DNA from: Nitzschia sp. DOCU1
Taxonomy: Eukaryota; Bacillariophyta; Bacillariophyceae; Bacillariales; Bacillariaceae
Length of the DNA: 64,000 nucleotides
Assembly (NCBI GenBank): GCA_951394045.1
Contig: OX595994.1
Coordinates: forward strand, 2,356,001-2,420,000
Direction of reading: 5' to 3'
In this document: positions 39,936 to 58,987 of the stretch, piece by piece
Numbering within the stretch: the stretch's first letter is position 1
Layout of the letters: each line of letters begins with the position of its first letter
Notes under the pieces: generated by a model
The model's input: the letters and a program-made list of their open reading frames with translations, nothing else
Database searches by the model: none
Told to the model about the DNA's origin: nothing
Translations under genes and position numbers: made by a program

Positions 39936-40752
39936 ATGGCTCGCTTCAAGGGTACCCTCGCTGAAAAGGAGCTCCAGACGCTCTTTGACAGCGGCGCAGT
40001 AAGTACTACCACGAAGCCCAAGGATGTTCAGGGGCTTAGTGATTTGTTTAAGTCCTTCTCCGAATCGGCTTTCAAGGCCGCTTTCTACCGCTTTTCAAAG
40101 GAAAGGCGCATGGCTGGGGAGTTGGCCCGCAATGGTGGGAGAACCACCCCCACTAGTAAGTACAGTCGATGCTCTTGAACTTTGCTCTATTATTCTGCAT
40201 TCTCTAACGCAACACACAGGCTTTCTTGCTGCTGGTACCGACGGCAATAATGCGGGGGCTTCTGTTCTTGGAATGGAAGTTCCCGCTGCTGTCTCTACTG
40301 GTGGCACCGTTGCAGGTAGTGTTCTTGGTGCTGGGACTGCTGCTGCTCCCGTCGAGCTCGATGATGTGCCCTCTGTCGCCCGTGCTGCTGCTCGCAGGTT
40401 GACCTATGAGGACTCTGACTTGACCTTTCAGCCTCCTGCGATCACTGATTGTGTGAAACATAACAACCAGCTCGTGCAGTATGCAGTCATTGTTCTCCCC
40501 TCCGGCACTAATGTTCTTGGTGGGCTCAAGTACTTTGTGAACCCCGAAGACTTGTCCGAGCTCGTGGTTGCCGTGCAAATGCCCCCTCTTATGGGCAATG
40601 CCAGGGCCATCCATGGGGATATGTTGAAAGACATGAATCCCCAGGAGCAGAAGAACCATATCAGGGTCTCGAACTACTTGGATGTTCTCCAAGGTATGCG
40701 CCCTTCGTCCGGTGGCTGGCCCTGGTTCCACGCAACCATCAAGGAGGCGTGA
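39936..40752 (+). CDS. Unrecognised 250-aa protein of the element cluster, 2 exons
   Basis: Exons 39936-40155 and 40220-40752, with a 64-nt intron (GTAAGT...ACACAG), encode 250 residues from MARFKGTLAEKELQTLFDSG. The N-terminal part is a charged helix-rich domain (FKSFSESAFKAAFYRFSKER). A Gly/Ala-rich linker follows, then a C-terminal domain with VQYAVIVLPSGTNVLGGLKY and a Trp-rich end (PSSGGWPWFHATIKEA). The family was not recognised. Clean splice sites and even composition support a real gene. It lies head-on in a cluster of genes unlike the host segment to the left, beside the Rep-helicase gene, and may be part of the same element; that is inference. Confidence 0.65.
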
Positions 40753-40935
40753 TAAACGAGAGAAGGGGGGTGGGGAGAAGGAAGATGGCAGAAAAGGGGA
40801 AGGTAGGGGAGAAAGGGGGAAGGAGGGAAAAGAAGGAAGAAGTATGTAGAGAAGGGTGGGGGGGGGGACAGCAATGGTAGGCGGGAGCAGAAAGGAACGA
40901 GAGAAGAGGGGGAAGAGTGGGGGGAAACATTTCTT
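40753..40935 (+). other. Purine-rich G-tract region
   Basis: About 180 bp in which the plus strand is nearly all A and G, with many runs of three to ten G (GGGGGGTGGGG, AGGGTGGGGGGGGGG). It could form G-quadruplex or triplex DNA. The long minus-strand frame across it is a composition artefact. Confidence 0.6.
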
Positions 40936-41086
40936 CCGTAAAATGCAAGGTTTGGTAAAGAAGTACCCACGGATTAAGGGTGTAAATAAATAGAGGAGGA
41001 TCAAGAAAGAAGTAGCAGCGTTAAAATAATCCATGGAAAGTGGTGCGGTAAGAGAAGAGCTGTGACTTGTGGAACGATAATGGTAG

Positions 41087-41947
41087 ATGGAAGAAGGGAT
41101 GGGCATTTCCGTTGATGAAGGAAAGAAGATGTCGGACGAAGGAAGTATATACAATGTCATGCGTTGGATTGGGGTGAAATGGTTGAATGAGTTTGCAAGA
41201 GAAAATGCCGTGCAGAACGAAGGGGGTAGTGGAAAGCGTGAGTTGTCGAAGTGGGTAGAAAGTCAGGAATTGATGTACGAGTTAGATGGATCAATACGAC
41301 GGGCAGTAAACTGGGATCTTCAAATTTTGAAATCATCGACATGGAAACGATGGCTTCAGATTGGATGGTCAGAGGAGCACAAGAGATATTCATTGTTTGC
41401 GGCAGGAAGATTCGAAAAGGGATCCTTGATTACTGTTGTGAAAGAACGGAAAGGGAGGGAAATAACCAAGCCCTCTTCCATGATACCTTCATTGACTACG
41501 CTTGGAGTAGGTGGAGAATGGGCAGTTAAAGTTAGGTGTGGAGGCCAAGAGGGAGACAGTAAAGTCAAAACCAACGCAATATTGTCGGGGGGGTTCATTC
41601 GAGCAATGACTCGTATCATGCCCGGCACAGAGATCGTGGTATATGATTGGGATGGTATACGAGAGATGTCAGGAATCACCGAAGACAGAAAGCTGGATTT
41701 GAACTACGATCTGTTGGATTGTATATTGTACAATTCAAAAAGGGATTGTGGATTTGACGATTGGTGTAGATTGGGTGTGGTGACTGGGTTTGGCAAGGTG
41801 CCTGGTATGTATAACGTACGATATTTTGATGGTGAGAGCACAGTACTGTCAGAGGACGAAGTGAGAGGAGGTTTAATTGCAAAGCCAAGCTGGATGAAAG
41901 ATGGTGGTAATAAGAAGAAACGGACAAAACAAAGTAGTGAAGGGTGA
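41087..41947 (+). CDS. SET-like/Tudor-like protein of the element cluster
   Basis: 286 residues from ATG 41087, single exon. The centre resembles a SET-type fold: SLFAAGRFEKGSLITVV followed by TNAILSGGFIRAMTRIMPGT and EIVVYDW. SET proteins show an N-H-S-x2-P-N then x-I-x-x-G-E-E-I pattern here. The Asn-His core is degraded, so methyltransferase activity is doubtful. The C-terminus has GVVTGFGKVPGMYNVRYFDG and STVLSEDEVRGG, a Tudor/MBT-like beta-barrel pattern that often follows SET domains in algal proteins. Both calls are by pattern only. It sits in the cluster between unknown genes and the Rep-helicase. The function is unknown. Confidence 0.5.
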   Translation: MEEGMGISVDEGKKMSDEGSIYNVMRWIGVKWLNEFARENAVQNEGGSGKRELSKWVESQELMYELDGSIRRAVNWDLQILKSSTWKRWLQIGWSEEHKRYSLFAAGRFEKGSLITVVKERKGREITKPSSMIPSLTTLGVGGEWAVKVRCGGQEGDSKVKTNAILSGGFIRAMTRIMPGTEIVVYDWDGIREMSGITEDRKLDLNYDLLDCILYNSKRDCGFDDWCRLGVVTGFGKVPGMYNVRYFDGESTVLSEDEVRGGLIAKPSWMKDGGNKKKRTKQSSEG

Positions 41948-42135
41948 GTCCCATGAGCGACACGTCCGGTAGAAAAGATTTTCCAGTTAGGAAGGCATTA
42001 ATTGGATACGGAAGAAAGTGAAGTGAATAGGAAAGTCTAAGAAAAATTAAAAGTAGGAAAAGACATGATGAAAATATAGGCACTAAAGTAAATGAAGAAA
42101 GGAAGCATAGGTATAGAGGAAAAAGCAGGCAAGAG

Positions 42136-43485
42136 TTACACATGAAGGGGACGGCGTTGTGCCGAGTTTCTGGTACGACCAGCGGACGCAGCGTCTTCCA
42201 AGACACTGGTAGTAGGAGCTGTAGTCCCAGAGGCAGGATGCTGCTGTCTTCGTGAGGCATTGTTGTTAGAGGTAGTGGTCTGGTTTGTACCCGGCGGTGC
42301 TTCTTGTTGGAAGCCTATCTGGAGGCTTTTGTACTCTTCGGTAAGAACTATGTTCTCGTTGCTTGGATGAAGGTAGGTAAGATGGGGTGTTACATTGGTG
42401 TTATCAAGCTTGTCAGCAGTATCTTCTGATGCATCGGCTACTTGGCCAAGCATAAACCAACCAACAGCTGTCCAGCCTCCATTACTGTTGACGAAATCAA
42501 CAATGCCCGTAACTTTTGCACGTAGATCCCGAATCATATCTTTTTGATCCTTGATGGGTGTGGTGTCACAAAAACGGATAAAGTTCTGGAAGAAGAGCTT
42601 TGTTGCCTTGAGGGACTTAAATTTAGGCACAACAAATACGTTGTTTCTGCCTAAGAAGTTGACATTAGTAGAAGTGAAGTCGAGAAAAGTAACATCAAAT
42701 TCATAGACCAGAGCACTGTGACTGGCTTGAGAGTGAAGGCAAGTACAACCTCCTTTGCCTTTCTGACGATCACATTCAGTACCAACACAAGAAACGTCAG
42801 TGGAAAGTGCAAAGCGGGACACTTTGCAAGTCTTGTTGGTTAGAACAAAGTAGTTAGTTTCTCCTGGTCGACTGGGCAATGTCATAGTATGTTCGGTTGA
42901 TTCAAGGTAAGGCACTGGGGTTGCACCTTTGAGAGGGAGCATCACATGGGGAGATTCTTCAGTGTTGAGTACTGGAGTAAGAGCTTTTCCAATTGTTGTG
43001 GTAGTAATACTGGGCTCGTAGATGTAGAATGGTTCACCTACAAAGGGTTTATGTTCAGTCATTTGGAGAAGAATCTCAGCTGATTGAAGTAGGGAGCGGG
43101 GGATGAGGACGGCAACCTTGGGAGGATTGAGCAAATCGGCTACTACAATATACTTGTTGTAGGTAGGAGCAAAGAGTTGACTTCTTTTGTTCTGCCCTGC
43201 TTGGTTTGCATTACTATTGTAGCTTGTTTGACGTAGTTTGATGGACGTATCAGTGCTTGCGTTTGGGGAGCGTACATCTAAAACAAACCCAAAGATGGCA
43301 GTGTCCTCAAGACTGGTAGCATTATCAACATCGGTAAGAAACATCATATCAACAAGAGTAGCTCCATTTTTGTACCTTCTAGTAACAATATGGTCATCGA
43401 GAAGATCGGTGTAGAATGCTTCTTTGGCCTGTTGAGCTAAGGTCCTGCCTATGTTGGGAGGGTTATTGACCACAGGATTTGACAT
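42136..43485 (-). CDS. 449-aa protein with a Cys/His motif, element cluster
   Basis: 449 residues, single exon, from ATG 43485. Not recognised. An N-terminal region with KEAFYTDLLDDHIVTRRY is followed by beta-strand-rich sequence (YIVVADLLNPPKVAVLIPRS, YEFDVTFLDFTSTNVNFL). A Cys/His cluster occurs as CVGTECDRQKGKGGCTCLHS near residue 245, which could bind zinc. A helical domain follows (FFQNFIRFCDTTPIKDQKD, GGWTAVGWFMLGQVADASE). The C-terminal 60 residues are Asn/Thr/Ser-rich. The beta-rich plus zinc layout resembles an OB-fold single-strand binding protein of the kind some Helitron-like elements carry, but that is a guess. Confidence 0.6.
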   Translation of the reverse strand: MSNPVVNNPPNIGRTLAQQAKEAFYTDLLDDHIVTRRYKNGATLVDMMFLTDVDNATSLEDTAIFGFVLDVRSPNASTDTSIKLRQTSYNSNANQAGQNKRSQLFAPTYNKYIVVADLLNPPKVAVLIPRSLLQSAEILLQMTEHKPFVGEPFYIYEPSITTTTIGKALTPVLNTEESPHVMLPLKGATPVPYLESTEHTMTLPSRPGETNYFVLTNKTCKVSRFALSTDVSCVGTECDRQKGKGGCTCLHSQASHSALVYEFDVTFLDFTSTNVNFLGRNNVFVVPKFKSLKATKLFFQNFIRFCDTTPIKDQKDMIRDLRAKVTGIVDFVNSNGGWTAVGWFMLGQVADASEDTADKLDNTNVTPHLTYLHPSNENIVLTEEYKSLQIGFQQEAPPGTNQTTTSNNNASRRQQHPASGTTAPTTSVLEDAASAGRTRNSAQRRPLHV

Positions 43486-43626
43486 AGTTTACGGTGCAAG
43501 GGAAGGTGGATTAATGAGGGGAAATAAGCTATGAGTGGAGTAAACAGATGCACAAAGAAAAAGCTGAAAGAAGATGAGGGGGGGGGGCAGGGGTAGGTAA
43601 GTAGATCTGAAGGGTTCTCAAGTTTA

Positions 43627-43685
43627 CCTACCCCGGTAGTCGAACTGCTGGTTTGGTCAGTCCTTCGGAGACACGGACCACTATC
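43627..43685. repeat. 59-bp dispersed repeat, copy 1 (tRNA-like)
   Basis: Differs at one base from the copy at 60475-60533, in the same orientation 16.8 kb away. The reverse complement has TAGTGGTC...GTGTC and AGTTCGACTACC, which resemble the A and B boxes of a tRNA-Asp-type gene, with missing or unpaired acceptor stem. A coding reading (YPGSRTAG...) also spans it. Confidence 0.7.
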
Positions 43686-43816
43686 GAGGAGGTTCGCATA
43701 TCGGACATAGTCCATGGAGTTCAGGAAGAAAGAGGGCAAAGCAGGTAAAAGGGTTTGCAGTTACAATGTTCAATATATTGATATAAAGATAGCATCACAA
43801 GAAATCTAAAGGAAGA

Positions 43817-44941
43817 ATGAAAAGGAAGGGAATGGATGACGAAGGCAACATTGAAGATACCCCTAATGGGAACCACATTGCAGATGTAGCAAGTAAGTTG
43901 TAGCGGTTGCTAAAAGAAGAGGAGAAAGTGTCAGATGAGATGGTGGGTTGTGGCTAACTAATTGTATTCGATTGCTGCAAGCAGGCATTCCGGCCACCAA
44001 TACAATGGTAGAAGGAGAAACTACTGTGGTGGTGACTCCTGAAAAGAGAGCAGGGGGGCCGGAAACCAAGAACAAGATTGTAATCGATATGACAAGAAAG
44101 GAGAATATGGCAAAGTTTCCTTCTAATGCTACAATGGAGAGGAAGGTCGAATTTCTTACTGCTTCAAAAGTTTTCGACAAGGAAGACTTTTTCCCCTTAG
44201 AGCTGGTGAGAAAACGTTCTCCAGAGTTTTTTCTTGTTGAACTCAAAGGCGGGTTGGAAGTAATCTATTGTGATAATGGTTCAATGGAGGCTTTCATCAA
44301 ACCTTTGACTGATTACCTTTTTGTAGCACAACAACATGGACATGAACTTCAACAGAAGCTCAAAATGCTAAAGAAGTTGAAGATATTTGCCCACGTATTC
44401 CGACGAGAAAGTAAGAGAAACAATGTTCCAATGAGCAAGGGTGATGGATCAACGTTTAAGAGAACCTGTATGTTGCGGTACTCTGGTCCTAATGGTAGCA
44501 CTAAAGAAGAGCAAAAAGAGGTCTTGTTCCTGCTAAGGGAGGTAAGTAGATGGGGAATTGGTTGACTGAGTGTAGAAAAAAATCTTCGCCAAGCTAATTG
44601 CCTTTGTTGTTTGAATACAACAATAGTTCATGAATAATTACTGTCGACAACACCCTCTTGGAGACTACGTCCAAACGTTTGAAATACCTAGTGACTTCAA
44701 CCAAACTCCAGGTATCAAAGAAGCGTGGGATCACTACATTCTGGACGAGGATATTCCTCGAGTTATGTTGAAACTGCTTCCCGTTAAACCTGACTGCAAT
44801 TTTGCTCAAACGGAGGGGGACGCCAAGGATGCACCTTTCAGTCCACCTTTCAGTTTTACTGCTCGGAAGTTTGGTTTTGGTGTTGTGGAAATTATTGGCA
44901 GTACAGGAGACACAAAGGGGAGAAGGCAGGGGTTAGTGTAA
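43817..44941 (+). CDS. Unrecognised 315-aa protein of the element cluster, 3 exons
   Basis: Exons 43817-43892, 43985-44541 and 44627-44941 (introns 92 and 85 nt, all GTAAG donors and CAG/TAG acceptors) encode 315 residues from MKRKGMDDEGNIED. The phase joins well at each site. Features: a charged N-terminal head, KVEFLTASKVFDKEDFFPLE, ELKGGLEVIYCDNGSMEAFI, and a basic stretch KLKMLKKLKIFAHVFRRESK. Next come RTCMLRYSGPNGSTKEEQ and LREFMNNYCRQHPLGDYVQT. The C-terminus is Pro/Phe-rich. The family was not recognised. Its 3' end faces the 3' end of the Rep-helicase gene, with a strong hairpin between them. Confidence 0.65.
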
Positions 44942-44990
44942 AAAAAAGCAGCGGGTGCCTTTCGTTGGTCTTGGAATTGGTATTGAAACA

Positions 44991-45028
44991 GGTGGAGAAT
45001 CCCTCCTAATCGGAGGGATTCTCCCACC
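44991..45028. other. Strong hairpin between convergent genes
   Basis: Inverted repeat GGTGGAGAATCCCTCC (44991-45006), loop TAATC, then GGAGGGATTCTCCCACC (45012-45028), 16 paired bases with one bulge. On the plus strand CTAG follows at 45039-45042, 10 nt beyond the stem, the spacing of a Helitron 3' end (hairpin then CTRR). It may instead be a shared 3' mRNA structure. Confidence 0.75.
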
Positions 45029-45329
45029 TGCATTGACCCTAGCCAAATGACTTGAGTTTCAGGGTGCAAAACAAAAAATTCATAACTATTGTATTAGGAA
45101 AGAGGAATGCTTAATAGGTATAAGGTAAGCAGTAGGTCCTTGCGGCTTCACATAGTAATAGAGGAGGTAAACGGAAGAGCTTCTTAGACGGAAACATTTA
45201 CTGCTATTAGAACAAACTATGAGGCACCGTAATCGTATTGAAAGTCATTGGATTGTTGAGGGGCAGTTACGAGAAGCTACAGAAGAATTAGTCTATCCCC
45301 TAGTCTATCCGTACACTATTATCTCGTTA

Positions 45330-48300
45330 TCATCTCGTTATCATCAGGTTTCCACACTGCACAAGGCGCAGTTGGGCAGCACCAGAAGGCAATTTCGTGT
45401 TGTTCTCCATGACTATTTCCCTCCCAGTTTGGACTATCCCTATTGCTTCTCCTGATTCCAGGCGTCTTCGTCTACAGCGTTCTCTCCACACATGTTCAAA
45501 GTGTTGGGCGTCTTTGAGATCGGAAAAACCAGCAACATACGCAAACAGAGCAAAGGGAAGTAACGCGGGATTCTTGGTTTGAAGGGAGCCTTGCAATGAG
45601 TTGTGCTCATGAAGACGTCGCCGTAGACTGGAGGTTGCTCCAATATAGTTAAAATGAAGATCTTGTAGGCTGATTAAATGGTACACAGCAAGGGAATTTG
45701 TCACAATACAATCTCTGGCTTGGAACACCGTTGGATGAGGCAAAACTGGTGGCAGGATGGCGGTCCCATTCTCGAATGTAGTTATAGTGGTTGCCATTGG
45801 GGCAATATCACACATTTTGTCAAGTAAGTCGGTGATGATTCCTGAAAAGCGGTTGTTCTGGTTGTTCACAACTTCAATCAAATGGGATATTGTTGCTTCT
45901 CTGTCGCCCACAAAGTACATTTGATTTGCCCGGCGTGTTCGGCTCATCAACACAACAACCAGAGATGAACTCCAGAGGTTAAAGTTAAGACCAGCATGGG
46001 CGGTGCCAACAGAGGTAACTGCAGTGACGATGTTGGGGAGAGTAGCCCCCATTGCTGCATGTATGGTGCTAGAAACTCTTGGTCGTAGACCGTACTGAGT
46101 ACGTCTTGCGTGATATCTGCCAATAATCCGTTGCGATTGTGTGGTAGTGCTTGGAACTTTGACCATGGACCAACCATTAGTCTTGAGCCACAATATGTTG
46201 CAATCGTTTGAGGAAGGGAATTGTTTTACTCCGCTGGGTGCTTTCCAAACTGATACAGGCACCGAGTCACACAGTTCTTGTTCGGTCGGAACCTGATCAG
46301 GAAGCATTAGGGCCAGCTGACCTTGGTCAAATTGGCCTCTGCTCACATGGGTAAACTCAAAGCGTGCATTGGGATAGAATAAGATGGTTGATCGCTGTTT
46401 GACTCTTCTGTCCAGCAATCGCGATGTTACAGCAGAAGCTTGAATCCAGTTGCCTGCTGTTGTAGACTCTTCATCATAACAATGGAAAAAGCGGGAGCGA
46501 GCACCATGCAGACGCCTCATCTTCTCCAATACCAAGGCTTCGGCTACATAGCAAGGCTCTTTTCTTCCAAATAAAAACACAGCATCATTGGGTATTCTCT
46601 CGTCTTCAAAGGTGTCCACAAAATGACAATTCTGGGAAAGAAGAGCTTCGAATTCAGTTTTGTCTTCCGGTGTCCAACGGAAGGATCGGGTCAAGGCCAT
46701 GATTCGACGTAGTGCAGGATCATCAGCAGCACGAACGGAATGTACCAATCGGCAGAATGACAGCTCATTCACTGTATAAAGAGATAACATTCCCGGTGTT
46801 CCTTTGAATGACATGAGCTGTAGATGGTCCATTGTGCAGAACAACAAAACACCTCCGCAGAAGAGAGAAGATTCATTTCGCACATAACGAAAGACCATGT
46901 CGAGAATTGCCATATATTCTGCACTGAACATTCCCCACTCGTCAATGAAAAGAAAATCCAATCGTCGTATGAACTCTATCCGATGAGGCTGACGATAAAG
47001 ATTTTGAATGGCGAGTTCAGCTATTCTGCCAGGAGAGGCATTATCGTCCCTGCCTCTTAACCCCAACAAAGCATGCAAATGGATTCCTCCGAGTTGTTTT
47101 GACCGTTCTGCCACAAAGCTGGTGGTGATACCATTCAGTCCTCGTGCCAAACAATAAGCAGCACAAAAGTTGGCAACCGTAGTCTTTCCAACTCCAGGGC
47201 CACCAACAAAAACTATGTTCTCAGGTTTCGTAGAGCCCGAAAAGTATGCTTTGACAGCGTCTTTGAAACGCAACATGACTCGTCTTTGTTCTTCGAAAGA
47301 TTCATCACTCTGGGAAGGATGTTTAGGCGGAGGGAAGAAAGCAACAAGATTGTCAACATCGGGATTAAGTTCCTGCCCTTGAGATTGTCTTGCGTTCTGA
47401 AGAGCTTCTTTAGTAGGTAGCAAGTTGTCTTGTGATAGGTTGCTGTAACTCGCCAATTCCACATATATAGAAGCAATCATTTGATATCTCATATCAGTCA
47501 TCTGTTTCTCGACGTTATCGCTCATCTTGCGAATCATGGTGGAAGCAAGAACCGGGGGAGATTCTAAGGGAAGGTTGATTGCATCTTCTAGGCCCCACAG
47601 GTCACGAAGATGACCATAGGCTTGCACAAGGGAACGACCAAGTTGGAAAGTGCTACCTGGCAAAACACGAATTTCTCTCTCAACGTATGTCTGCATCATG
47701 CGCTGAAACGAGGATTCTAGTTGACTTGGGTTGAGAAGTCCACCTCGTATAAAAGCTTCTTTCATGGTGCAGCCCTTCATCAATTCATATTCTGTTTCAA
47801 AACGACCATAAAGGAGGAGGAGATGCACAAGAAAAGGAACCTTTTTCTTGGGGTGAACTGGTGACCACCATATCACGGGGGAAATTTTGGAGGACGTATG
47901 GGGTTTTGCAAGAAAGGTCTTGATTGTTTGCAATTTATTTGCCGATAACAGCAATCTCTGATGGCTGCTATTGTCCATTGAGCTAACCGTGTGCAAGAAA
48001 GCCAATAGATCGATGATTTCTTTGCAGGGGAGCCTCTTGTAGAATTCTAATTGTTGATCATTGGATGCCTCCTCTGCCATTCGGTTTACGGCATGTTGAT
48101 AGAGATGCCCCATTTCACCATGGCGAACCTGAACGTGGTAGTTGAAGCCATCCAACCATTTACAGTCAGGTACTACCAGGGAAAGATTCCCCATGAGATA
48201 TTTTTCTGTTCGTTCAACATGAAACAGTTCGCACACCGGGGACCGTATAAACCACTGTAGATAGTCTCTCGGATTATCAACAAATCGTAACTCTGGTGGT

Positions 48301-51300
48301 CTCATGGAGAAGATGGTGATTGAATCTGTCTGCAACGGTGAATCCAATTCATCTCTAATCACTTCCAGTTGAGATGCTGAAAACAAACGATGATCAGGAA
48401 ACAGTTTCCGTCTGCGCACAGTTTGCCCAATAACAGCTTTGATGGCAAGCACATCCTGTCGTCGGAGTGACTTGGTTATGTTGAGGTACCTGGTAATAGC
48501 TGCCGAGCGGTATTCCCTAGGACAGGTGGGGATCTTGATGAACTCTGCTGTCGTTGCCACAAGACTCTTGGCTTGTAAGACTGATAAGCATTCCATGAGG
48601 GTGACAGGGCGTCCAGCAGGTATGTTTTGTTTTTGGCTGCGATAAACTGAGGCAGCTTGACGGACACTGTTGATTTTTGTATTGCCTAGGTTCTGGTGCT
48701 GAGCTCGGATGGCATCAGGGTCATTTGCAACAGGTGGTTTCAGCAGTACAATCAATCCCCTGTCGACCCCAGCAACGTATTTTGCCAGGTACAGAGAGAG
48801 ACAGGCACGCTGAGCATTCTGCAGATTTTGTGATGAAGGAAACTTGGCAAAGAGAGCTGCATTAGTGGGAGACATAGTAGCATCCAAGGGAGAGCATCTT
48901 GGTATGTGCCTCTTCATTAATAGCCGTGGGTCTGTAACTTTGATGGTACCAGTGTAGAGATCTTCTTTAGCATACCCTAACTTGAGAAGGATTTCTAACG
49001 CCGATTGAGAGTGCTGGACCTCTATTTCTTGTATGGTATGCTGGCCTGCAGAGTCGGTAGCTAGATAGTTGTTCAACCGCTTGCATACCAAAAAAGTGTT
49101 CCCATCCTCATCTGTCTTGGGGACTTGACATCTGGGACCACATCTATGGCTCAAGTATCGTTCAGCATTGTCCAAGATATCCAGGAGGCATTGTAAATGT
49201 GTACAATCATCCATATTGTTGTACTGTGATTTGATATAGGCAGCGAGATCTGCTTTACAGCCATGGATTTTATTCAGTACCACAGCGAGGCCTTCTGGGG
49301 TAGTAGTATCATAGGCCGTCTTCAGCATGGCATGGATGTGATACACGTTACCTTGATCATCTTGGAATTCCTTCCTGTACCAGGCCCATTGGATGGGTCC
49401 TAGTGGTTCTTCCGGACTGTGGATTATGTACTTCATCCACAGATCGATGAATGCACTCCAAGCTCTTTCAACATACACAGCGGATGCATTGCGAAGGATT
49501 GTTTTGGCCTGGTCTTCACTAACAGTATATTCCCTCATGGCCTGAAATGTAGCTTCGGTGCTTGTTATCCACTTCCTAAGCATTTTAAGGCCAGGGGCAG
49601 TAGAATGATTAGCCGTCTGGGTATAGAAGTAATCAGGTGGCGACGTTTCAAAGAGTCTCGTTAGCTTGTGGATGTTAGAGAAGTTTTCCACATCATCTTC
49701 ATAGAGTTCTTCGTTGCTGTTTTCCTCTCGGTTTCTGAATGCAACCCCTTCAGACGAGGACTGCTTTTCAGCGAATCCCCTGTGCAGGACCAATCTTGAA
49801 TCGTTGCCCCGCATAGCTACGTTTGTCAAAATGTCCAATTGCATAAACTGATAAGTGCTATTCGTAGAGGTCAATAAAGCAGGATCCTGCACTCGCGTCC
49901 AAGCATGTCCCCGCATAGACGCTATACCAAATCTTGCCAAGGTTGTTTTATCGTTCCAGAATGCAGTTGGAATGGCGCCTAAGATAGCCCCTGTTTCATG
50001 GGCAAAGTAGAAGATGTCAGAGAACAATGCTCCTTCTGCATAAACAAGTGGGACAGAAGTGTTTGGGGATCGAGCGATCAACTTGTGAAAGAATGCCGCA
50101 TGTGCCTTTTTCATTCTCAACTTCGCATGTTTCCTTATAAGAAGATGGCCTTGTCTGTTTAACATGATATGCATTGGAAAAGAAGCAATTGCTCCATCTT
50201 CGGTGGTAAATTCGGCATGTAGAGGTCTTTCTACTTCCACATTGGTCATGGTAAATGGATAATCTGGGTTGGTCAGATCAAGAGCCGACTCTTCGGTATA
50301 TTGGAACCGCCCATCTGTGCCAAATCCGGCATTGAATGATGGCTGTTTGCCTCCATCAGCATAATGCAACAAGTCTTCGGCAACCTCGAAGTTTTCATAG
50401 GGACCCAGATTATCCCTGATGTGATCCATATCTTCAAGATCATCGTTAATGGATGACAGTGGATCTAGTTCACCGGGAACACCGGGAAGATAGGGTGGCT
50501 CAATAATAACTCCATTGTCTTCTTCCTCAATGGAATCGTCATCTTCTCTGTATGTGGAGACGTACGTACGATAAGGACCAACGTCCTGGTCACAAGTCGT
50601 GGAACCAAGCAGATACGTAAGTTGTCGGTTCGATCCATCAAGCAGTGTCACCATGTGCGATTTGCAACCACCAATCTGACAAGAAGGTCGGGGACAAGTG
50701 TAAAGCGAGGACTCAGGACATTTGTCCTCCATGTTTTTATGGTCCCATGATTTCATTCCCAGGTTTATGGCATTTTGGTTGCAACTACAAATACGCTGGG
50801 AGGATAGAGTAGGGACCATGACAAGTGGATGGCGATGTTCTCGGCAGTATACAGAAGTTTGACCCCCAAGGCAGATCAGATACCGCTCCATCAATGAAGA
50901 AACAGAGGGAGTGACAGCTTTCTTGAATACTACCAGCCGAACATCATCAACAGACCAAGAACTATTGGATGGGGCTTTGGCAAAGTAAGACTGGGTGGAT
51001 TCTTGGACCCACCAATCTTGATGCAAAGAGGTGGCATGTCGGGCGTAAATAATGCCATCCCAGCTTAAGGCACCTTTCCCGCCTTTTCCGAGGGATGGTC
51101 GTTTACCTAACACAAATGTTGGTACCCAGTTATCATCATGGTGTTGTCCAGTGGGGTCGAAGACAAAAGTATTGCCATCTGTGCTGTACTCGAAGATAGC
51201 TACGGCTTTGCCACAATCAGTGGGTATCCAAGGTTGGTTGAGAAAGTGGTCAATTGCATCAGTAGGCCATTCGAAAACGTCAGAATCATTGCCCGGCAGA

Positions 51301-52868
51301 ATGTAATCAGGAATGAGAAGACCTTTTACAGACGACAACGAAAATGCACTTGGTTTGACAGAAGGACCTCCAGATTTGATCTCACTCCAAACTAAGGACA
51401 ACAAATAACCTTGGGGGTCATGAGTGGTCTTCAGTCGACATGTCAAAATGGGAACCAATTCATCGACACACATGACAACAGCCATCAAAGACCAGATACG
51501 GAAACTTTTGTGATCAGTTCGTCTGGCACTGCAGAAGCGCTCGCCATACGTATTATATGGATGTACCCGTATATACTTGAATGGCCACGGCGGAACAAAC
51601 ACAATATCTTTGGTGGCCCCTCCGGCCATAGTTGCTGGTTGTTGAAGGGTCAAAGGGTGTTCATTATAGATCTCTTCCTGCAGAGACACAGCATCTTCTA
51701 GACCTACATAGGTGGAGCCTTCCAGTTCCTTTGCGGCATATGTCCTTACATTGGGAAATCTTTGGTCTGCCGCTGTGATCTTGTTCAGTACCACCTCTTT
51801 GGAAAGACGACTGATAGGATCAGTAGTCGAACAGAGGGATAGGACATGGTTCTTGACATCCATTCGGCCACTGATCGACAACGCATCTCGCAACATGGTA
51901 AGAGGATCAGTGTCGTTATATCTGCCATGATTTGTAACATAGCACGAGTCGATTCCATCAAAACCACCCTGCATTCGTACAGTGACAAAGGTGTCGGAGA
52001 AAGCATGTGGTTTGGCCTTCCTGATGACACGGGAACGAAGTTGGAGAGGAGCAAACTGATTTGAGTTTGTACTTGACATGTTCCCTGTGGGATTAACAGG
52101 GACATGTAAAAAGCGCAAATTTGACTTCTTGGCGTGCTGCTCACAACAGAGGACAAAGACGCCCTCTCGATTGGTTATAATTTTGGGGCGACACCGAAAC
52201 TTTGGGTTGAGCAAAGCCGTTGTCGAACTCGGGAAATCTGGGCGACAGGTATCAACCCAACTTCGCCCACGGTACTTCGGAGAATAAATTTGCAACATGT
52301 AATTGCTTTTACATGCTAGTAGGTCGTCGTATGGTAGCAAATGAGTTTCGTGGAGAAAGACGCCATCTCCCCAAGGGCATCGGACCGAAGGAAACACAAG
52401 ATGCTTATTTATTTCCTTTTCCAGGCGGTCGAATTTGAGACCGGCAATGGCAGTGAGTAGATTTGCTCTCTCTTGACTTGCGTCTTCTACTTCAGCTGGA
52501 GGTTCTTCTATGGTAACGTCACCCTCGAAGTTTTCCCACCACCATCCCCGCCATTCTATTGGAATCAGTCTCCATTTCTCTGCTAGACTAACTACTTCCG
52601 TTCTTCTATTCTCATGGGATAGGTGCAAAGATAAGAAGGCCCAGACCATGGCCGGCCAATAGGAATCATGTTTACTGCCGCTTGGTCGAAAGTAGGCAGT
52701 ACAAGCGGAACATAGGGTAACGGTTGGTCCTAGTGTATGATAATCAAAGTTGCAGTACTTCTTTTGAACAGCATAGCGAAGCTCTCTTTTTGGTGTATCT
52801 ATAAAGATGACATGGCGTCTGCAACAATTGATGCAATGAGTTCCTTGGTGTGGGTGTCGACGTGGCAT
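45330..52868 (-). CDS. Helitron-type Rep plus SF1B helicase fused to SLX1-like GIY-YIG nuclease
   Basis: 2512 residues in one exon (ATG 52868). N-terminus: Cys/His-rich, HCINCCRRH then CSACTAYF. Rep part: EFQDDQGNVYHIHAML (HUH motif near residue 1174), Cys ligands HRCGPRCQVP, and SLYLAKYVAGVDR near 1359, the Y-x2-K-Y pair of Helitron Rep. Helicase part (PIF1-like): GGPGVGKTT near 1887, FLFIDEWGM near 1973, LFCTMDHLQL (motif III), STIHAAMGATLP near 2265, and VVLMSRTRRANQMYFVGD. The last ~120 residues are a GIY-YIG domain: VYHLISLQDLHFNYIGATSS, RRRLHEHN, LFAYVAGFSDLKDAQHFEHV (catalytic Glu), like SLX1. Rep and helicase drive rolling-circle transposition; the nuclease addition is the odd part. 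Genes upstream and downstream may belong to the same element. Confidence 0.85.
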   Translation of the reverse strand: MPRRHPHQGTHCINCCRRHVIFIDTPKRELRYAVQKKYCNFDYHTLGPTVTLCSACTAYFRPSGSKHDSYWPAMVWAFLSLHLSHENRRTEVVSLAEKWRLIPIEWRGWWWENFEGDVTIEEPPAEVEDASQERANLLTAIAGLKFDRLEKEINKHLVFPSVRCPWGDGVFLHETHLLPYDDLLACKSNYMLQIYSPKYRGRSWVDTCRPDFPSSTTALLNPKFRCRPKIITNREGVFVLCCEQHAKKSNLRFLHVPVNPTGNMSSTNSNQFAPLQLRSRVIRKAKPHAFSDTFVTVRMQGGFDGIDSCYVTNHGRYNDTDPLTMLRDALSISGRMDVKNHVLSLCSTTDPISRLSKEVVLNKITAADQRFPNVRTYAAKELEGSTYVGLEDAVSLQEEIYNEHPLTLQQPATMAGGATKDIVFVPPWPFKYIRVHPYNTYGERFCSARRTDHKSFRIWSLMAVVMCVDELVPILTCRLKTTHDPQGYLLSLVWSEIKSGGPSVKPSAFSLSSVKGLLIPDYILPGNDSDVFEWPTDAIDHFLNQPWIPTDCGKAVAIFEYSTDGNTFVFDPTGQHHDDNWVPTFVLGKRPSLGKGGKGALSWDGIIYARHATSLHQDWWVQESTQSYFAKAPSNSSWSVDDVRLVVFKKAVTPSVSSLMERYLICLGGQTSVYCREHRHPLVMVPTLSSQRICSCNQNAINLGMKSWDHKNMEDKCPESSLYTCPRPSCQIGGCKSHMVTLLDGSNRQLTYLLGSTTCDQDVGPYRTYVSTYREDDDSIEEEDNGVIIEPPYLPGVPGELDPLSSINDDLEDMDHIRDNLGPYENFEVAEDLLHYADGGKQPSFNAGFGTDGRFQYTEESALDLTNPDYPFTMTNVEVERPLHAEFTTEDGAIASFPMHIMLNRQGHLLIRKHAKLRMKKAHAAFFHKLIARSPNTSVPLVYAEGALFSDIFYFAHETGAILGAIPTAFWNDKTTLARFGIASMRGHAWTRVQDPALLTSTNSTYQFMQLDILTNVAMRGNDSRLVLHRGFAEKQSSSEGVAFRNREENSNEELYEDDVENFSNIHKLTRLFETSPPDYFYTQTANHSTAPGLKMLRKWITSTEATFQAMREYTVSEDQAKTILRNASAVYVERAWSAFIDLWMKYIIHSPEEPLGPIQWAWYRKEFQDDQGNVYHIHAMLKTAYDTTTPEGLAVVLNKIHGCKADLAAYIKSQYNNMDDCTHLQCLLDILDNAERYLSHRCGPRCQVPKTDEDGNTFLVCKRLNNYLATDSAGQHTIQEIEVQHSQSALEILLKLGYAKEDLYTGTIKVTDPRLLMKRHIPRCSPLDATMSPTNAALFAKFPSSQNLQNAQRACLSLYLAKYVAGVDRGLIVLLKPPVANDPDAIRAQHQNLGNTKINSVRQAASVYRSQKQNIPAGRPVTLMECLSVLQAKSLVATTAEFIKIPTCPREYRSAAITRYLNITKSLRRQDVLAIKAVIGQTVRRRKLFPDHRLFSASQLEVIRDELDSPLQTDSITIFSMRPPELRFVDNPRDYLQWFIRSPVCELFHVERTEKYLMGNLSLVVPDCKWLDGFNYHVQVRHGEMGHLYQHAVNRMAEEASNDQQLEFYKRLPCKEIIDLLAFLHTVSSMDNSSHQRLLLSANKLQTIKTFLAKPHTSSKISPVIWWSPVHPKKKVPFLVHLLLLYGRFETEYELMKGCTMKEAFIRGGLLNPSQLESSFQRMMQTYVEREIRVLPGSTFQLGRSLVQAYGHLRDLWGLEDAINLPLESPPVLASTMIRKMSDNVEKQMTDMRYQMIASIYVELASYSNLSQDNLLPTKEALQNARQSQGQELNPDVDNLVAFFPPPKHPSQSDESFEEQRRVMLRFKDAVKAYFSGSTKPENIVFVGGPGVGKTTVANFCAAYCLARGLNGITTSFVAERSKQLGGIHLHALLGLRGRDDNASPGRIAELAIQNLYRQPHRIEFIRRLDFLFIDEWGMFSAEYMAILDMVFRYVRNESSLFCGGVLLFCTMDHLQLMSFKGTPGMLSLYTVNELSFCRLVHSVRAADDPALRRIMALTRSFRWTPEDKTEFEALLSQNCHFVDTFEDERIPNDAVFLFGRKEPCYVAEALVLEKMRRLHGARSRFFHCYDEESTTAGNWIQASAVTSRLLDRRVKQRSTILFYPNARFEFTHVSRGQFDQGQLALMLPDQVPTEQELCDSVPVSVWKAPSGVKQFPSSNDCNILWLKTNGWSMVKVPSTTTQSQRIIGRYHARRTQYGLRPRVSSTIHAAMGATLPNIVTAVTSVGTAHAGLNFNLWSSSLVVVLMSRTRRANQMYFVGDREATISHLIEVVNNQNNRFSGIITDLLDKMCDIAPMATTITTFENGTAILPPVLPHPTVFQARDCIVTNSLAVYHLISLQDLHFNYIGATSSLRRRLHEHNSLQGSLQTKNPALLPFALFAYVAGFSDLKDAQHFEHVWRERCRRRRLESGEAIGIVQTGREIVMENNTKLPSGAAQLRLVQCGNLMITR

Positions 52869-52997
52869 CGTCAAATGTTAGTGCTGATGTGCTTCAGTTG
52901 AGAAATATGGGGCAAAACCAAGAAAAGTAGGTGGGCGAAGAATGTGATCGTCAAAAGTAGTAAGCTATAAAAGGCCCCTAGTCGTAATATGATTTAT

Positions 52998-55900
52998 TTA
53001 TGCATTCTTTACTACTGGTTGATAAGCTTCTGCATTCTCGTTCCAGTTCTTCCATTTTGAAACGTAGGCCCCGTTCTCTTCAAAAATCCAGAAGAGATAT
53101 TGGCCCGGTTCCACATAGTCATAGGCATTTTTATTGGCCCCTATGCAATCACACCATATGGACTCAAACCAAGTCCACCTTTCTTCTACACCACAAAATG
53201 ATGTAACTTGCCGGCAGAATTTTTCCATCCTGGGATCGATGCCTGCTGCTGCCAGCTTAGGATCAGTGGCAAATTTGGAAGTCTTGCTGGCGGTGATGCC
53301 ACACTCCTCTAAGTATCGTTGCAAAGTCGCCTCAGTCTGCTTTACGGATGGAAAAGCAAAGAAGCAATTCCAAACTTTCCTCCTCACCACATACCCGATC
53401 ATCGCAGCATATAGGCCAAGATTCATGCCATAGAAGGCGTCGATCCCACTTATGTTGGCGGTAGCCTCTTTTAACCGAGCTTTGAACTCGACGAGGGTCA
53501 GGTTGTCTCTCTCTTCGAGAAAGAGAAGCAAACCTTGGATAGATGCTGTATCACGCTTCAGAGTGCCTTGATCGCTGTATCTCATTCGCAGATCTATTGA
53601 TGTTGTTCTGCCTCGAAGATTCCCCCCCCCTTTCCAACGACCCACTCCATATGTTAAATCTAATTCATCGATCATCATCACGACAAGATTAGCATCTGCC
53701 AATTTATCTTGGGACAGTTCTTGTAGTTTCATGAGAAACCGGAGACCCGCTCCATAAAAAGTATCCCAACTGTTAAAATATAGAGATAGCAATAGCAGTT
53801 CCTCTATTTTGGTTTCGAACCCTGCCTGACGCAAGTAGACACGGGCTTTCAAAAGGATTGTCATTCCTTTAGATGCCCAAATTTCCTTCGGATAGGTGCG
53901 GCAAATATGCCACATCTTCACTATCTTCCCCCCTACTCGGGTGTCCTTCATTTGAGAGTCGTCTTGAAAGCACAAGCGAAATGGTTCTTCAAAAGAAGCA
54001 CCATACCGAGCAAAGTCTTTGTCAACTTTATCCCGATGGTTCGTCAGAGCTTGCTTCAAAGGAATACAGCGGGCTTCGTTCTGTTCAAATATTTCGAGTG
54101 ATCTTCGAGTATACCCAATCATGTAGAAGCGCCAAAGCCTGGGTCGATCGGGAATGCGGGGGCCAAGGACTGCTCTTGTGATGATCTTGGCATCTGCCGG
54201 ATCCACCTGATGACGTTGCTCCATAACATTGGAGATGGATTTCGAGAAAAAGAAATAAGAGAAAGTGACACTCCCATTGTTGCCTTTCTTGATTCCATTG
54301 AGAGTATCAGAATGACGATTGGACAAGGAAGGTCCATTATTGGTTTCGCCATTTGCCAAATCGGGTGATGGGGCAGGCCCAAGGCAGATGTCCCATGCAT
54401 GAAATCGCTGCCGGGTGGCTCCAACTTTTTGATTAAATATTGCCGTGAAATTTTCTCTGATGAATGCATCCTGTAAGATATGTATATCAATATGCTCTTC
54501 TTGTAAGACATCGTCCAACAAGTCCTGGACAAAATCCATCAGTCGACCTAGAAGTAAGGGAAGGTCAGGGTGAAAACTGTGCAAATCTTCGACACCACAT
54601 AGGTAGCGTGGCGTATCCTTGATGAACTTCCATTTCGTGTTCATCCTTTCCTTCTTTTGGAACCCGTAGTTATGATCGGCTGCACCGATTGTAATGCGAA
54701 TAGGAGCTAGCACATTGTGCAACCCTCCCACATTATCTCGCATCAAATCGGTCTTCCCATTTCGGGATAGATAGTTTAGAATCAGCTCAAAATCCAAATT
54801 ATCCAGATGATGCTCACGAAAACATTTCAGGAACTGGTGATGATGCGATCGTATGACAAGATAATCCCGAGTGCCTCGGAGACGAGTGTCATCTTCTGGA
54901 ATCCATACATGGGCAAGATCTCTGGTGAAAGTCATCGAGGACGCTGCAGTTGATCGCAGCAGTACGTCGTGCTTTGTTTCATCTACCTTCCGGAAGAAAA
55001 TTACATCCATTGCACCCAGTGGGATTAACACTTGACCGTAGTTTCTTGTATCATACCGAAGAATTTGCCGGTCCCTAGTTTTCCACGTGTCACTACCGAG
55101 CGCTTGGCGGAGGTATGAAATGAAAGCTGGTACGCGGTTCAGCTTATTCTTCGTCAACAAGGCATTTGCAGTTTCCACGTCGAACGTGCCAGTATGGCTG
55201 TTGGCTGCGTCAACGTTGAGTACACTGTCATTGTCTTCGTCCTGCTGTCCTGGGGTTAAAATTGCAATAAGGCCAGTAGAGGTTCGAGTGCCATGGTCCC
55301 TGGAACCAGCCGTCACATTGTTCGTTGAATTCATTGCCTTTTCGACCACCATATCCGCAACATGCACACCAGGCTCGAGATTGTTTCCATCGTTGGTTGG
55401 ACTAGCCAAAAGCTCTGTTTTTTCTTCTTCACAGCTCTTGTTGCTTTGCATAGAAGAAGTTGTAGCAAAATCATCAAAAGTCAGACCTCGTTTTTCCACG
55501 GTCCGTTTTTTCTTCCTGACTGGGTTCTTCCTCTTTGGAAGAGTATCGCTCTGCTTTGGCTCTTCGCCCTCTTCGCCCGTCGTTTCTTCGCTGCCATCGA
55601 TTGCATCTCTATCTTTCCCGTCTAATTTTCGAACCCAATCGTAGGCTTCTCTCGCTGCATATTGCTGGGCTGCCAGCAGGCTAAGGTGTCGATCTCCTTG
55701 CGTTGATAAGACCGTTGTGGCTTGACTCTTGGAATATAGAAGGCAATCAAGACCCTTTTCAGTGCGATAGTCTCTGCAAGAGACGGGAAATTTGTAGTTT
55801 CTGGTAAAAACATACAACATGTATGCTGCTGCATTCTTTTTTGTAATGCTTCCCGAGTAATATAATCCAACGGAATTTTCGCTGCAGTCCGCTAGATCCT

Positions 55901-57420
55901 TGATGATACGGTCCCGCGTTTCCTCGGGAATGATATTATCGGCAGCATCCTGAATACTGTTCTTGAACTGTAGAGGAGATCTTTTGACATTCGCCAGAAG
56001 TTCTTCAAGGTGAGGATTGCCGATGCGGCAATAATGAATACGGATGAGACACTCCAGCAGGTAGAAATGTTCCCGAATGCTATCGACTTTATTGAAAAAG
56101 TCGTAGCAGAATCGCAACCATGGTTCTCTTTTTTCGGCGTTGTTGATAACAACATCGTTGAATAAAATATAGCCAGCCACATGCAAGGTGGCCAAGTGAA
56201 TTGACCAAGCCTCCTGCAACTCCTGACAAAACAGACGAGCTTCCTTGCTGTAGTCCGGTGCTTTCGCCTGCGGGTTATGCCGTATTCGACCTTGAAATCC
56301 CTTGACGATGATGTTCAGACATCTTGTTGCTGCTAAATTTAGATTTTGCTTGAGGGCAACGAAAGCAACAGAACGAGTCTTGGGGGTCTCCCACACTTGA
56401 CTAAATCTGACGTTAAACAAGTACTTCCTTCCAATTCCACTTTTGGTGAAGTCTCTGTAAGCATAAAGCTGTAGAGCGTGCGTGGATAGAGCATCCAAGT
56501 ATGATAACCCAGCTTCGCAACAGAGTATATGAATGTAATCAATCCCCTTGGTGAAGACGGACTCTTTCGTCTTTGTTTTAATTTCCTTTGCGACAAACAT
56601 CTGAAAGACAGGGTGAGTAACGAAAACAAATGCGTGCCTTTGTCCTTCTATGCTTACTTACTTGAAATGGAGCGCTTGGGACCCATTTCTTCCCCATCTG
56701 TTCTATCAGGTAATTCCTCACCTGTGGGGAACTACCCGTGATAGTAGCAAGAGAGGTAACGTCCCGAGAAAGTTTGTGATTCAATCCTACGGCTGCATAG
56801 CATCGCTTCAATTTCCGCCGGTGATGATCCGGCTCTTTCGCAATGCCCACCGTAGGGTCCATATCATCATTGTCGTATCCATCCAAAATATGGACAACGT
56901 CGACTAGGCGTCCATCGTCAAGCTCAGTTACACTGATTTTAGGCGCAAGTTTGAATCCCGGGGAAGAACATTGAGCTTCAACTTTCTTCTCATTTCCTTC
57001 TTTCTCGTCGCCGTCGTCATCCTCATCCTCGTCATTATCCTCCTCGTCATCCTCATCCTCGTCATTATCCTCCTTGTCATCCATGTCATCACCGTAATCA
57101 TCGTCAAAGCCATCGTCGTCATCATCATCATCGTCGTCGTCATTATCTTGGTCGTCACAACGGTTTGTTGGCTGCCATTCACTATCGTCTTCTTTTTCAT
57201 CTACTTCCTCAGAGTCAATTTCTTCCTCTGATTCATCGCCATTCTCTGATTCGTTGGTATTGTTGGGTTCCATTGCAATCCTCTTTTGGACAAAACTCTC
57301 AAGCTCGTCCACGTTGTTCAAATCTTCATTCAGGTCGTCTATTTCTGAAATTCCACTCTCTGGTAAGAGTCCATCGTTACTGGCGTTGCCTTCTTGATCC
57401 ATGCTGACTGCTGAGTTCAT
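52998..57420 (-). CDS. Unrecognised 1453-aa acidic-headed partner of the Rep-helicase, 2 exons
   Basis: Exons 57420-56662 and 56600-52998 are joined by a 61-nt intron (GTAAGTAAG...CTTTCAG), phase 0, which places PSAPFQ directly before MFVAKEIKTKTKESVF. Start ATG 57420 (MNSAVSMDQEGN) is inferred; one at 57516 is possible. Residues ~30-165 are extremely acidic, with long Asp runs encoded by GAT/GAC repeats (57010-57150). The rest is helix-rich and Trp/Arg/Phe-rich, with features such as YIHILCCEAGLSYLDALSTH, SPDLANGETNNGPSLSNRHS, and a Trp-rich end. No motif of a known enzyme was seen. It is co-oriented with the Rep-helicase gene with 129 bp between, so the two are probably expressed together. 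Such a partner is not part of a classical Helitron. Confidence 0.75.
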
Positions 57421-57470
57421 TGTTTTTGGCGAATATGAGACAAACAGAATAGGCATGCAAAATTGCGAGA

Positions 57471-57700
57471 GATCTTCTTCTGTACATGACAGCAAATGGA
57501 CAAAAATGAATTCCACGTGTACCGGTAGTCTACATATGGTGCCTTAAATATGGTGCCTTGTTGTAAATGCATTCGTACCTACTTAAACTACATATAAGCT
57601 CTTGTTCTGCACATGACAGCAGATGGACAAAAACGAATTCCACGTGGAGTCTACATATGGTGCCTTGTTGTAAACCCATTCGTACCTACTTCAATACTTC
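57471..57700. repeat. ~128-bp tandem duplication at the 5' edge of the partner gene
   Basis: Copies at 57474-57590 and 57602-57694 share ACATGACAGCARATGGACAA, AATTCCACGTG, GTCTACATATGGTGCC, CTTGTTGTAAA and CATTCGTACCTACTT in order. Copy 1 has an extra ATATGGTGCC unit. Upstream of the partner gene start; could hold promoter elements. Confidence 0.8.
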
Positions 57701-57764
57701 CAATGAGAACTGCTAACAATTGGCATAATAGTACCCGATATGGAAATCCTCATAATTTCTACAA

Positions 57765-58349
57765 ATGGATCCAAACTCTACTCTCGAGATAGCTTTTCTT
57801 GCTCGGCAACCAGGAACTGGAAAAACTACTACCGTTGTGAATGTTTGTGCCACATACTGTTTGCAACGAGGACTCCATTTCGTTACTACTAGCTTCCTGG
57901 CAGAACCGTCTGAACGACTCGGGGGAATCCATTTGCATGCTTTGTTGTGCTTGACGGGTGAGGAAAATACTATCTTTCCTAGCAGAATGGCTGGACTGGG
58001 CTTCCAAATTTGTCATCGTCAACCTCATCCCATCAAGTTTCTCCAACAATTCCATTTTGTTTCCATTGACGAGTGTTCAATCTTCAGTTCAAAGTATATG
58101 TTGGTCCTAGATATGCTTTTTTGCTGTGTCGTAGATGAAATCAAAGGAATGCATGAAAGTGGGCACCAGCGTATTGAAAACCAGCAAGCCCTGCTGATCC
58201 CCATGCAAAACAGTGTCGGCAGAAGCACAGCAACACCTTTGCTTTGCCACATTCTAAGGTGGTTGTCCTCGACATTCCTTGTTGTCAAATATATCCATCA
58301 TTACAGATCAAAGCAGTATACTGACAGGTCCCGCAAACAGACCCCGTAA
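57765..58349 (+). pseudogene. Decayed helicase fragment related to the Rep-helicase
   Basis: Frame of 194 residues with ARQPGTGKTTTVVNVCATYC (Walker A), TTSFLAEPSERLGGIHLHAL and SIDECSIFSSKYMLVLDMLF (Walker B). Each block aligns with the same motif in the 2512-aa protein (for example GGPGVGKTTVANFCAAYC and FIDEWGMFSAEYMAILDM). After Walker B the sequence is unlike the helicase and stops early, lacking motifs V and VI. It has no Rep or GIY-YIG part. It is oriented oppositely to the large gene, which suggests an independent, truncated relative in the same family. Whether the short frame is translated is unknown. Confidence 0.8.
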
Positions 58350-58573
58350 CATTAGACTTTCTTGTATTTCCCATCCACTCTATCTCATCCTTACCAAATA
58401 GGCAGGGATGTTTTCTTTCCATACCTACTTAGGAACCACGAGAATAGGGTAGATGCGAGTATGCTTGCTTCAAACTGTAGCCTTTGCACTTGTCGTCGTC
58501 TTCTCTTTGCGATTCTGTGACCAAAAAAAACCAAGCATAAAGAACACAAATCTCCATTGTTCCTCTAATAATA

Positions 58574-58987
58574 ATGAGCCGAACAAAAGCAACACCATCA
58601 AAGTTGCCACAAGGAAGACTTCGTGAGAATAGAACTCCAGGGAGAGGAAATGGACATGAGGAAAGCCTGCTTACAATTGTAAAAAAGCGACGATATCGGC
58701 CAGGAACAGTGGCTCTTCGAGAAATCCGAACATACCAAGCTTCAACAAACTTGTTGATCAATAAATTGTCTTTTCAGAAACTGGTAAAGGAAATTGTCTG
58801 GCAAGACTTCAATCGCCGTGATCTTTGCTTCCAAGCAGCTGCTCTCTTGGCACTTCAACAAGCTGCCGAAGCTTACATTACTGAAATCTTCGAAGATGCC
58901 AATTGGTGTGCTTTGCATGCTAAACGAGTGACAATTATGAAGAAAGATCTTCAGCTTGCAAAACGAATCAGAGGGGAACGATCCTAA
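58574..58987 (+). CDS. Divergent histone H3 variant with CenH3-like loop 1
   Basis: 137 residues, single exon. The core is clear: [87 protein letters not shown]. The tail ([14 protein letters not shown]) keeps Lys at H3 positions 4 and 9 but then diverges strongly. Loop 1 reads [11 protein letters not shown], one residue longer than canonical QDFKTDLRFQ, a common sign of centromeric H3 (CenH3); the rest of the histone fold stays H3-like (for example Cys110-like CALHAKRV), so it could also be a replacement variant. It lies between the helicase fragment and a 145-bp satellite. CenH3 identity is an inference. Confidence 0.8.

Follow-up and report, generated by a model that had tools for sequence, protein, structure and literature searches.

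A probable lineage of large Helitron-like transposons with a fused SLX1-like GIY-YIG nuclease, and associated histone H3 genes, in the diatom Nitzschia sp. DOCU1

The window analysed here is a stretch of 64,000 nucleotides from Nitzschia sp. DOCU1 (assembly GCA_951394045.1, contig OX595994.1, positions 2,356,001 to 2,420,000). It holds an intronless gene for a protein of 2512 amino acids (aa), here called RepHel-GIY, which an earlier note on the bare letters had read as a Helitron-type Rep-helicase ending in an SLX1-like GIY-YIG nuclease. We find that this gene occupies just the central part of an element of ~20 kb with several genes, among them one for a histone H3 variant. We suggest that the element very probably belongs to a new lineage of giant Helitron-like rolling-circle transposons in which the Rep-helicase is fused to GIY-YIG.

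The RepHel-GIY protein and its relatives

The long frame is borne out as a gene. It lies on the minus strand (the corresponding plus-strand frame holds numerous stops) and recurs at no fewer than 18 loci of the same 52.1-Mb genome once neighbouring matches among 32 are joined; as the scoring covered 19 of 40 candidates, this is a minimum. The matches reach residue 2508 or beyond at 17 of the 18 loci, the remaining one ending at residue 2449. In addition, public genome and metagenome proteins include at least 11 homologues (seven from ena, three from jgi and one from lgn), ten at 38–43% identity and one at 29%; this number is likewise a lower bound, as scoring was confined to the 7983 candidates that had the most words in common with the query. 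A chance open frame can be rejected on the grounds of homologues, selection and residue conservation, and a single-locus artefact on the grounds of the 18 loci and 11 database proteins.

When the window protein is aligned with the 11 database homologues, the HUH histidines (His1177 and His1179), the two tyrosines (Tyr1360 and Tyr1364, spaced Y-x3-Y), the Walker A residues, Asp1976-Glu1977 and Gln2017 are invariant in all 12 proteins. The histidine pair noticed earlier thus holds, and so do both tyrosines of the motif then written as Y-x2-K-Y, although its lysine varies. The main superfamily 1B helicase motifs that had been claimed are also present, namely Walker A (GGPGVGKTT), DE at 1976–1977, Gln2017 and motifs V and VI. 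An HUH motif followed by two tyrosines, here predicted to be catalytic, with a PIF1-type helicase in the same protein, is characteristic of the Helitron-like superfamily.

Domain searches, which the earlier note had proposed, succeeded for the nuclease and in part for the rest. In the Pfam scan of the window protein, GIY-YIG scored above the cut-off (4.2e-6), PIF1 fell below it (9.8e-4) and the Helitron_like_N model was not reached. Across the 12 aligned proteins, PIF1 was matched in every one at E ≤ 1 (best 2.6e-9) and GIY-YIG in 11, the exception, P0010, stopping before the domain. The AP endonuclease family is absent from the Pfam match lists of the window protein and the 12 aligned proteins. 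Among solved structures, phmmer with the window protein placed SLX1 first (1.8e-4), followed by PIF1-type helicases at 0.006 or worse; with a profile of the 12 proteins, the matches were 2.5e-10 for SLX1, 1.1e-8 for PIF1 and 1.8e-4 for the helicase region of Helraiser, a Helitron transposase. The stretch downstream of the tyrosines that recurs in a canonical Helitron from this genome (Table 1) gave an hhalign P of 3.5e-5 over 31 columns, against P ≥ 0.09 in six column-shuffled controls.

The GIY-YIG domain was aligned in 16 sequences, comprising six of the 18 genome loci (c4, c5 and c6 among them being close copies) and ten homologues, P0010 being excluded because it ends early. All 16 retain YIG, the arginine and the glutamate, and 15 retain the GIY tyrosine; this is the residue set of the SLX1 type within the GIY-YIG superfamily. 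The C-terminal residues match SLX1 and not a non-nuclease family, and the fusion is not confined to one locus, the two outcomes that had been named as refutations. Sequence-level support for reading RepHel-GIY as a single protein with Rep-HUH, PIF1-type helicase and SLX1-like GIY-YIG comes from the conserved residues, the profile matches, the Pfam GIY-YIG match in 11 of 12 proteins and element ends that fit an HUH nuclease.

The ratio of nonsynonymous to synonymous substitution rates (dN/dS) of RepHel is 0.14 between copies c4 and c5, indicating purifying selection between these two copies. In c4 and c6 (L004 and L006), the RepHel frame ends at residue 2017 through one TGA, which the near-identical c5 lacks.

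Ends, insertion sites and other genes of the element

Among ten copies and the window, within-group similarity of the flanks extends 4.7–7.8 kb downstream and at least 7.6 kb upstream of the frame in most pairs. In the window, the element begins with GATAGTGGTCCGTG at 60533 and ends with ...TATCACGCCTCCTT at 40741, the exact placement of the ends inside a CTTGAT common to both junctions following the CTY|G model described below. The ends of the copies are sharp: they begin with GATAGTGGTCCGTG or, in group B, with GATAATGG, and finish in a pyrimidine-rich tract whose last bases are CACGCTACTY or CACGCCTCCTY. In short form, the ends are GATARYGG (5′) and CTACTY or CCTCCTY (3′). Folding of five 3′ ends gave no stable hairpin. 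The window element measures 19.8 kb, and c4, c5 and c6 measure 22.2, 22.0 and 23.1 kb, respectively.

Omitting the window element restores the read-through of a host frame. This frame has two uninterrupted paralogues with 99% protein identity across the junction, and the DNA of one empty site (L039) is 98.6% identical to the joined window flanks over 2001 bp, with no gain or loss at the joint.

A genome-wide pattern search, which excluded ends with A at position −3, found 56 5′ ends, of which 47 follow CT plus any base and 42 follow CTY; the reversed-pattern control found two. Eight of the nine ends without a preceding CT are of the type GATAGCGG. At the other end, the base after ACCACGCTACTY is G in 26 cases and another base in three, the 3′ patterns excluding the CCTCCTY type and group A (C before CACGC). 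For elements of the GATAATGG type, the triplet is CTC in 16, CTT in six, CTG in one and CTA in one of the left ends, as against CTT in 25 and CTC in one of the right ends (Fisher p 4.6e-7, CTT against CTC). Similarly, of the 11 elements whose two ends are known, four have a different third base of CTY on the left and on the right, the left end of one element (c12) being assigned by distance. A target duplication of CTYG is unlikely because the left and right copies differ, and on this genome-wide and element-by-element difference we reject it; the window empty site alone does not exclude it. The difference implies that the left CTY is part of the target and the right CTY part of the element, which would be expected if a single nuclease cut after CTY at every site. 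Hence insertion at CTY|G without target duplication is most likely on this sequence evidence, which is as expected for an HUH nuclease.

A 3′ end and a 5′ end meet exactly at C16:839908-839933, with another 3′ end 0.6 kb farther on, an arrangement that suggests short non-autonomous copies. Separately, three pairs of GATAGCGGTCCGTG matches lie ~7.18 kb apart after CAC or CCC (G000 C6:1515824/1523006, C6:2582041/2589224 and C7:615485/622669) and perhaps mark a different repeated unit.

The remaining genes of the element are listed with its other features in Table 1. A homologue of ORF C (ORF, open reading frame) lies 1–9 kb downstream of RepHel at all 18 loci, and its product is probably, to judge from a weak fold model, a single-stranded DNA-binding protein. 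ORF A was not found in the examined flanks of five group-B copies. The Tudor-like match of the 286-aa ORF (PF21743) stands at 0.1 in the window and 0.016 in c2, both below the cut-off; Pfam scans of the window and c2 gave no SET match, and we reject Pfam SET membership for this ORF. The internal second 5′ end leaves a nested or tandem smaller second element possible at 43685-40741. Outside the element, a 2168-aa ORF with PSxxPS-type repeats occupies 19135-25641 of the plus strand.

Table 1. Coordinates of the element and its features in the window
Feature	Position	Strand	Basis
Whole element, 19,793 bp	40741..60533	minus	copy comparison and paralogous empty site
RepHel-GIY protein, 2512 aa, intronless	45330..52868	minus	open frame and homologues
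HUH motif VYHIHAML	49323..49346	minus	both His invariant
Two-tyrosine motif YLAKY	48777..48791	minus	both Tyr invariant, Lys variable
Stretch RPVTxMExLxVxxxxxLVxxTxEF	48540..48620	minus	common to same-genome canonical Helitron
PIF1-type helicase core, limits approximate	45930..47210	minus	Pfam and profile matches
GIY-YIG domain, residues 2395-2466	45471..45686	minus	Pfam, SLX1 profile match, 16-sequence alignment
Histone H3 variant, 137 aa	58574..58987	plus	Pfam Histone 8.2e-37; solved H3 1.4e-39 over residues 1-136
ORF A, 1200 aa	52998..56600	minus	homologue in c2-c6, 31-51% identity
ORF C, 449 aa, RPA-like, two OB folds predicted	42136..43485	minus	fold match
286-aa ORF, SET-like by eye, weak Tudor-like match at end	41087..41947	plus	homologues in 10 of 10 compared copies
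186-aa ORF	44005..44565	plus	homologues in c2-c6
194-aa P-loop piece	57765..58349	plus	34.6% identity over 104 aa to RepHel helicase of group A
Internal second 5′ end, preceded by CTC	43672..43685	minus	~1.6 kb past RepHel stop

Proposed mechanism and its alternatives

We propose that the element very probably moves by HUH nicking, helicase peeling, joining at CTY|G and nicking of a branch by GIY-YIG. At the 5′ end, the two-tyrosine HUH domain would nick one strand immediately after CTY (CTY|GATA), and the fused PIF1-type helicase would displace the nicked strand during host copying. The 3′ end would be cut by the same active site, again directly behind CTY (CTACTY|G or CCTCCTY|G). The freed strand, presumably coated while single by the RPA-like protein of the element, would then be joined, probably via a circle, into a CTY|G target without target duplication. 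Finally, the SLX1-like GIY-YIG most likely nicks the branched joint (a flap or loop) at the target or donor, by which the new strand would be fixed. The order of strand events is taken from a published Helitron outline (PMC6213432). What the sequences themselves show are the domains, the conserved residues, the element ends, an empty site, the copy number and, between c4 and c5, purifying selection; we infer the order of strand events, the circle, what GIY-YIG does, and how the RPA-like protein folds and acts.

Several results are null or weigh against this reading. The AlphaFold model of the Rep region has a low mean predicted local distance difference test score (45). The dN/dS of RepHel between c2 and c3 is 0.42, c3 being decayed. 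CTTGAT flanks the window element on both sides and is single in the empty site, which is compatible with a duplication of up to 6 bp, and the internal 5′ end had no counterpart when sought in c2 and c3. Among the accessory genes, ORF A matched no Pfam family, sequence searches of ORF C gave no family and its weak model gave no Foldseek match with E below 0.001 (RPA ranked second, at 0.11), and the homologue search of the 286-aa ORF returned one protein. An H3 tree of eight sequences is too small for a firm statement.

The main rival keeps the rolling-circle transposon and changes the part played by GIY-YIG, which would not be a resolvase but would make the first or target nick and so set the target. 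Such a role was proposed for the Helentron endonuclease by its authors (PMC4067079), and the GIY-YIG and AP endonuclease fusions lie at the same protein end. However, the same CTY stands before both ends and in the target, which the HUH site alone explains. Moreover, SLX1-type domains recognise structure rather than sequence. We consider target nicking unlikely, and favour branch resolution as the role of GIY-YIG.

It would be tempting to see in the CTYG of both junctions and the target the crossover core of a tyrosine recombinase, Crypton- or Starship-like, with the 1200-aa ORF A of unassigned function in the element and RepHel-GIY as a passenger or replication protein. Yet the left and right cores are unlike in the four elements noted above, and also genome-wide; no recombinase was matched by Pfam in 11 distinct window ORFs, the other copies being partly scanned; and no ORF A was detected near five of the ten copies compared, whereas RepHel and ORF C occur together at all 18 loci. 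This alternative is therefore very improbable. Weakest of all is a viral reading, in which a large DNA virus, or a replicon resembling one, became endogenous and replicates as a rolling circle. The length of ~20–23 kb, the several genes and the histone gene, of a kind that some large viruses also carry (PMC9145170), would fit. Against it, the element has a precise transposon-like CTY|G insertion, no capsid or packaging match among the same 11 ORFs, and no relative among viral contigs in two peptide-pattern scans of limited sensitivity; we reject a viral origin on the absence of relatives by these few patterns and of particle genes in those ORFs. A prokaryotic source was rejected as well, as none of 68 stretches matching one of two peptide patterns was a relative.

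Histone H3 genes and comparison with known systems

The 137-aa protein of the window has, by its sequence matches, a histone fold and H3 character along its whole length. The genome holds 27 H3-like loci, of which ten have a RepHel-GIY locus at a distance of up to 12 kb (nine within 8 kb and the tenth at 11.5 kb), a limit chosen after the distances were known, and six have a canonical Helitron_like_N locus no more than 3 kb away. The chance expectation per H3 locus is ~1.1% and ~0.3%, respectively, giving binomial P values of 1e-13 and 4e-10. An H3 variant gene is thus found in or beside the element at ten of the 18 RepHel-GIY loci, with a stop in three of the ten genes and in none of the six Helitron-linked ones. 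The latter are linked in the sense of lying near Helitron loci, whose ends are unmapped, and one of the six was read. All six diverge from the Helitron gene at a distance of 1.6–1.9 kb; because of this constant arrangement and the similarity of their Helitron matches, the six Helitrons appear to be one family.

Six aligned element-linked H3 sequences (window, c2, c3, c4, c5 and one Helitron-linked), of which c2 and c3, and c4 and c5, form close pairs, carry one or two extra residues between alpha1 and loop1 relative to two host H3 sequences. Their tail has diverged, the first residues ARTKxTPxK being retained in some and not in all. For H3, dN/dS is 0.45 between c4 and c5 (15 changes) and 0.24 between c2 and c3, and the proportions of nonsynonymous and synonymous differences (pN/pS) between the window and host genes are 0.29/0.72. 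Selection on the element H3 is likely on these comparisons, and not proven to be recent. A second host-like H3, with an altered alpha1 region and 87% identity to the host H3 L035, lies at G000 C10:1819901 (L036).

The H3 gene also differs in place and strand between element groups, which suggests that it is a cassette mobile within the elements. In c2 and c3 (L026 and L027), H3 stands in opposite orientation, though the two elements share ~98% identity along most of their extent. The synonymous rate (dS) is 0.28 for H3 as against 0.07 for RepHel; this orientation and greater divergence point to cassette exchange. It is conceivable, if doubtful, that this alga harbours rolling-circle transposons which make chromatin of their own, a trait common to two rolling-circle families, in which the element H3 and the SET/Tudor-like protein would package or mark the circle or the inserted copies and thereby evade silencing or replication control, or retain the circle. 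An H3 variant borne by transposons would allow one to ask whether mobile DNA writes its own chromatin.

Neither a Helitron–GIY-YIG fusion in the published literature searched nor an intact H3 in a rolling-circle element among the literature matches listed was found, in sources seen in part; Repbase, preprints and most subscription journals lay outside this search, and a prior description of either in them is possible. Precedents do exist for both features, as an AP-endonuclease fusion in Helentrons and an H3 in a hAT transposon. The latter, from Pyrenophora tritici-repentis, is likewise a multi-copy DNA transposon bearing a divergent histone H3 (H3L), but it has a hAT transposase and terminal inverted repeats, measures 5.6 kb and is not rolling-circle (PMC3538342). 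Culex Helentrons contain histone fragments with stops, and the proto-Helentron of Phytophthora (~14 kb) resembles the present element as a large multigene stramenopile element with a SET histone-methyltransferase-type gene; it differs, by its description only, in having no endonuclease, insertion at A|T and a 3′ CTAG (PMC4067079).

Canonical Helitrons (Helraiser and the PF14214 families) share the two-tyrosine HUH, the PIF1-type helicase and, as far as the ends allow us to judge, the lack of target duplication. The Helraiser tyrosines are spaced Y-x3-Y, as here. Canonical ends are 5′ TC and 3′ CTRR with a hairpin, and the ends described above differ from them. Furthermore, Helitrons have no GIY-YIG, Helitron_like_N is unmatched in the window protein, and canonical insertion is between A and T (PMC4067079, PMC4289320), unlike the likely CTY|G insertion here. 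The bacterial HUH transposons IS91 and IS200-IS605 cut beside a short tetranucleotide common to end and target (CTTG or GTTC for the IS91 target), as is proposed here, and possess neither a PIF1 helicase nor GIY-YIG. SLX1 itself, the closest solved GIY-YIG by profile, has a RING-type finger, no sign of which appears in the short tail that follows the GIY-YIG here fused to RepHel.

Helentrons, a group marked by subterminal inverted repeats, likewise combine Rep, a PIF1-type helicase and a C-terminal endonuclease in one protein; in some families they carry RPA, OTU and other extra genes (PMC4067079). Their endonuclease is of the AP type and they insert at T|T, whereas the present element has GIY-YIG and most likely inserts at CTY|G, together with a pyrimidine-rich, hairpin-less 3′ end and a length of 20–23 kb. 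If our reading is true, CTY|G offers a defined substrate for Rep assays, and Helitron-like elements took up a structure-specific nuclease independently of the AP endonuclease of Helentrons and at the same protein end, a parallel gain that points to a real step of rolling-circle transposition, the resolution of a branched joint.
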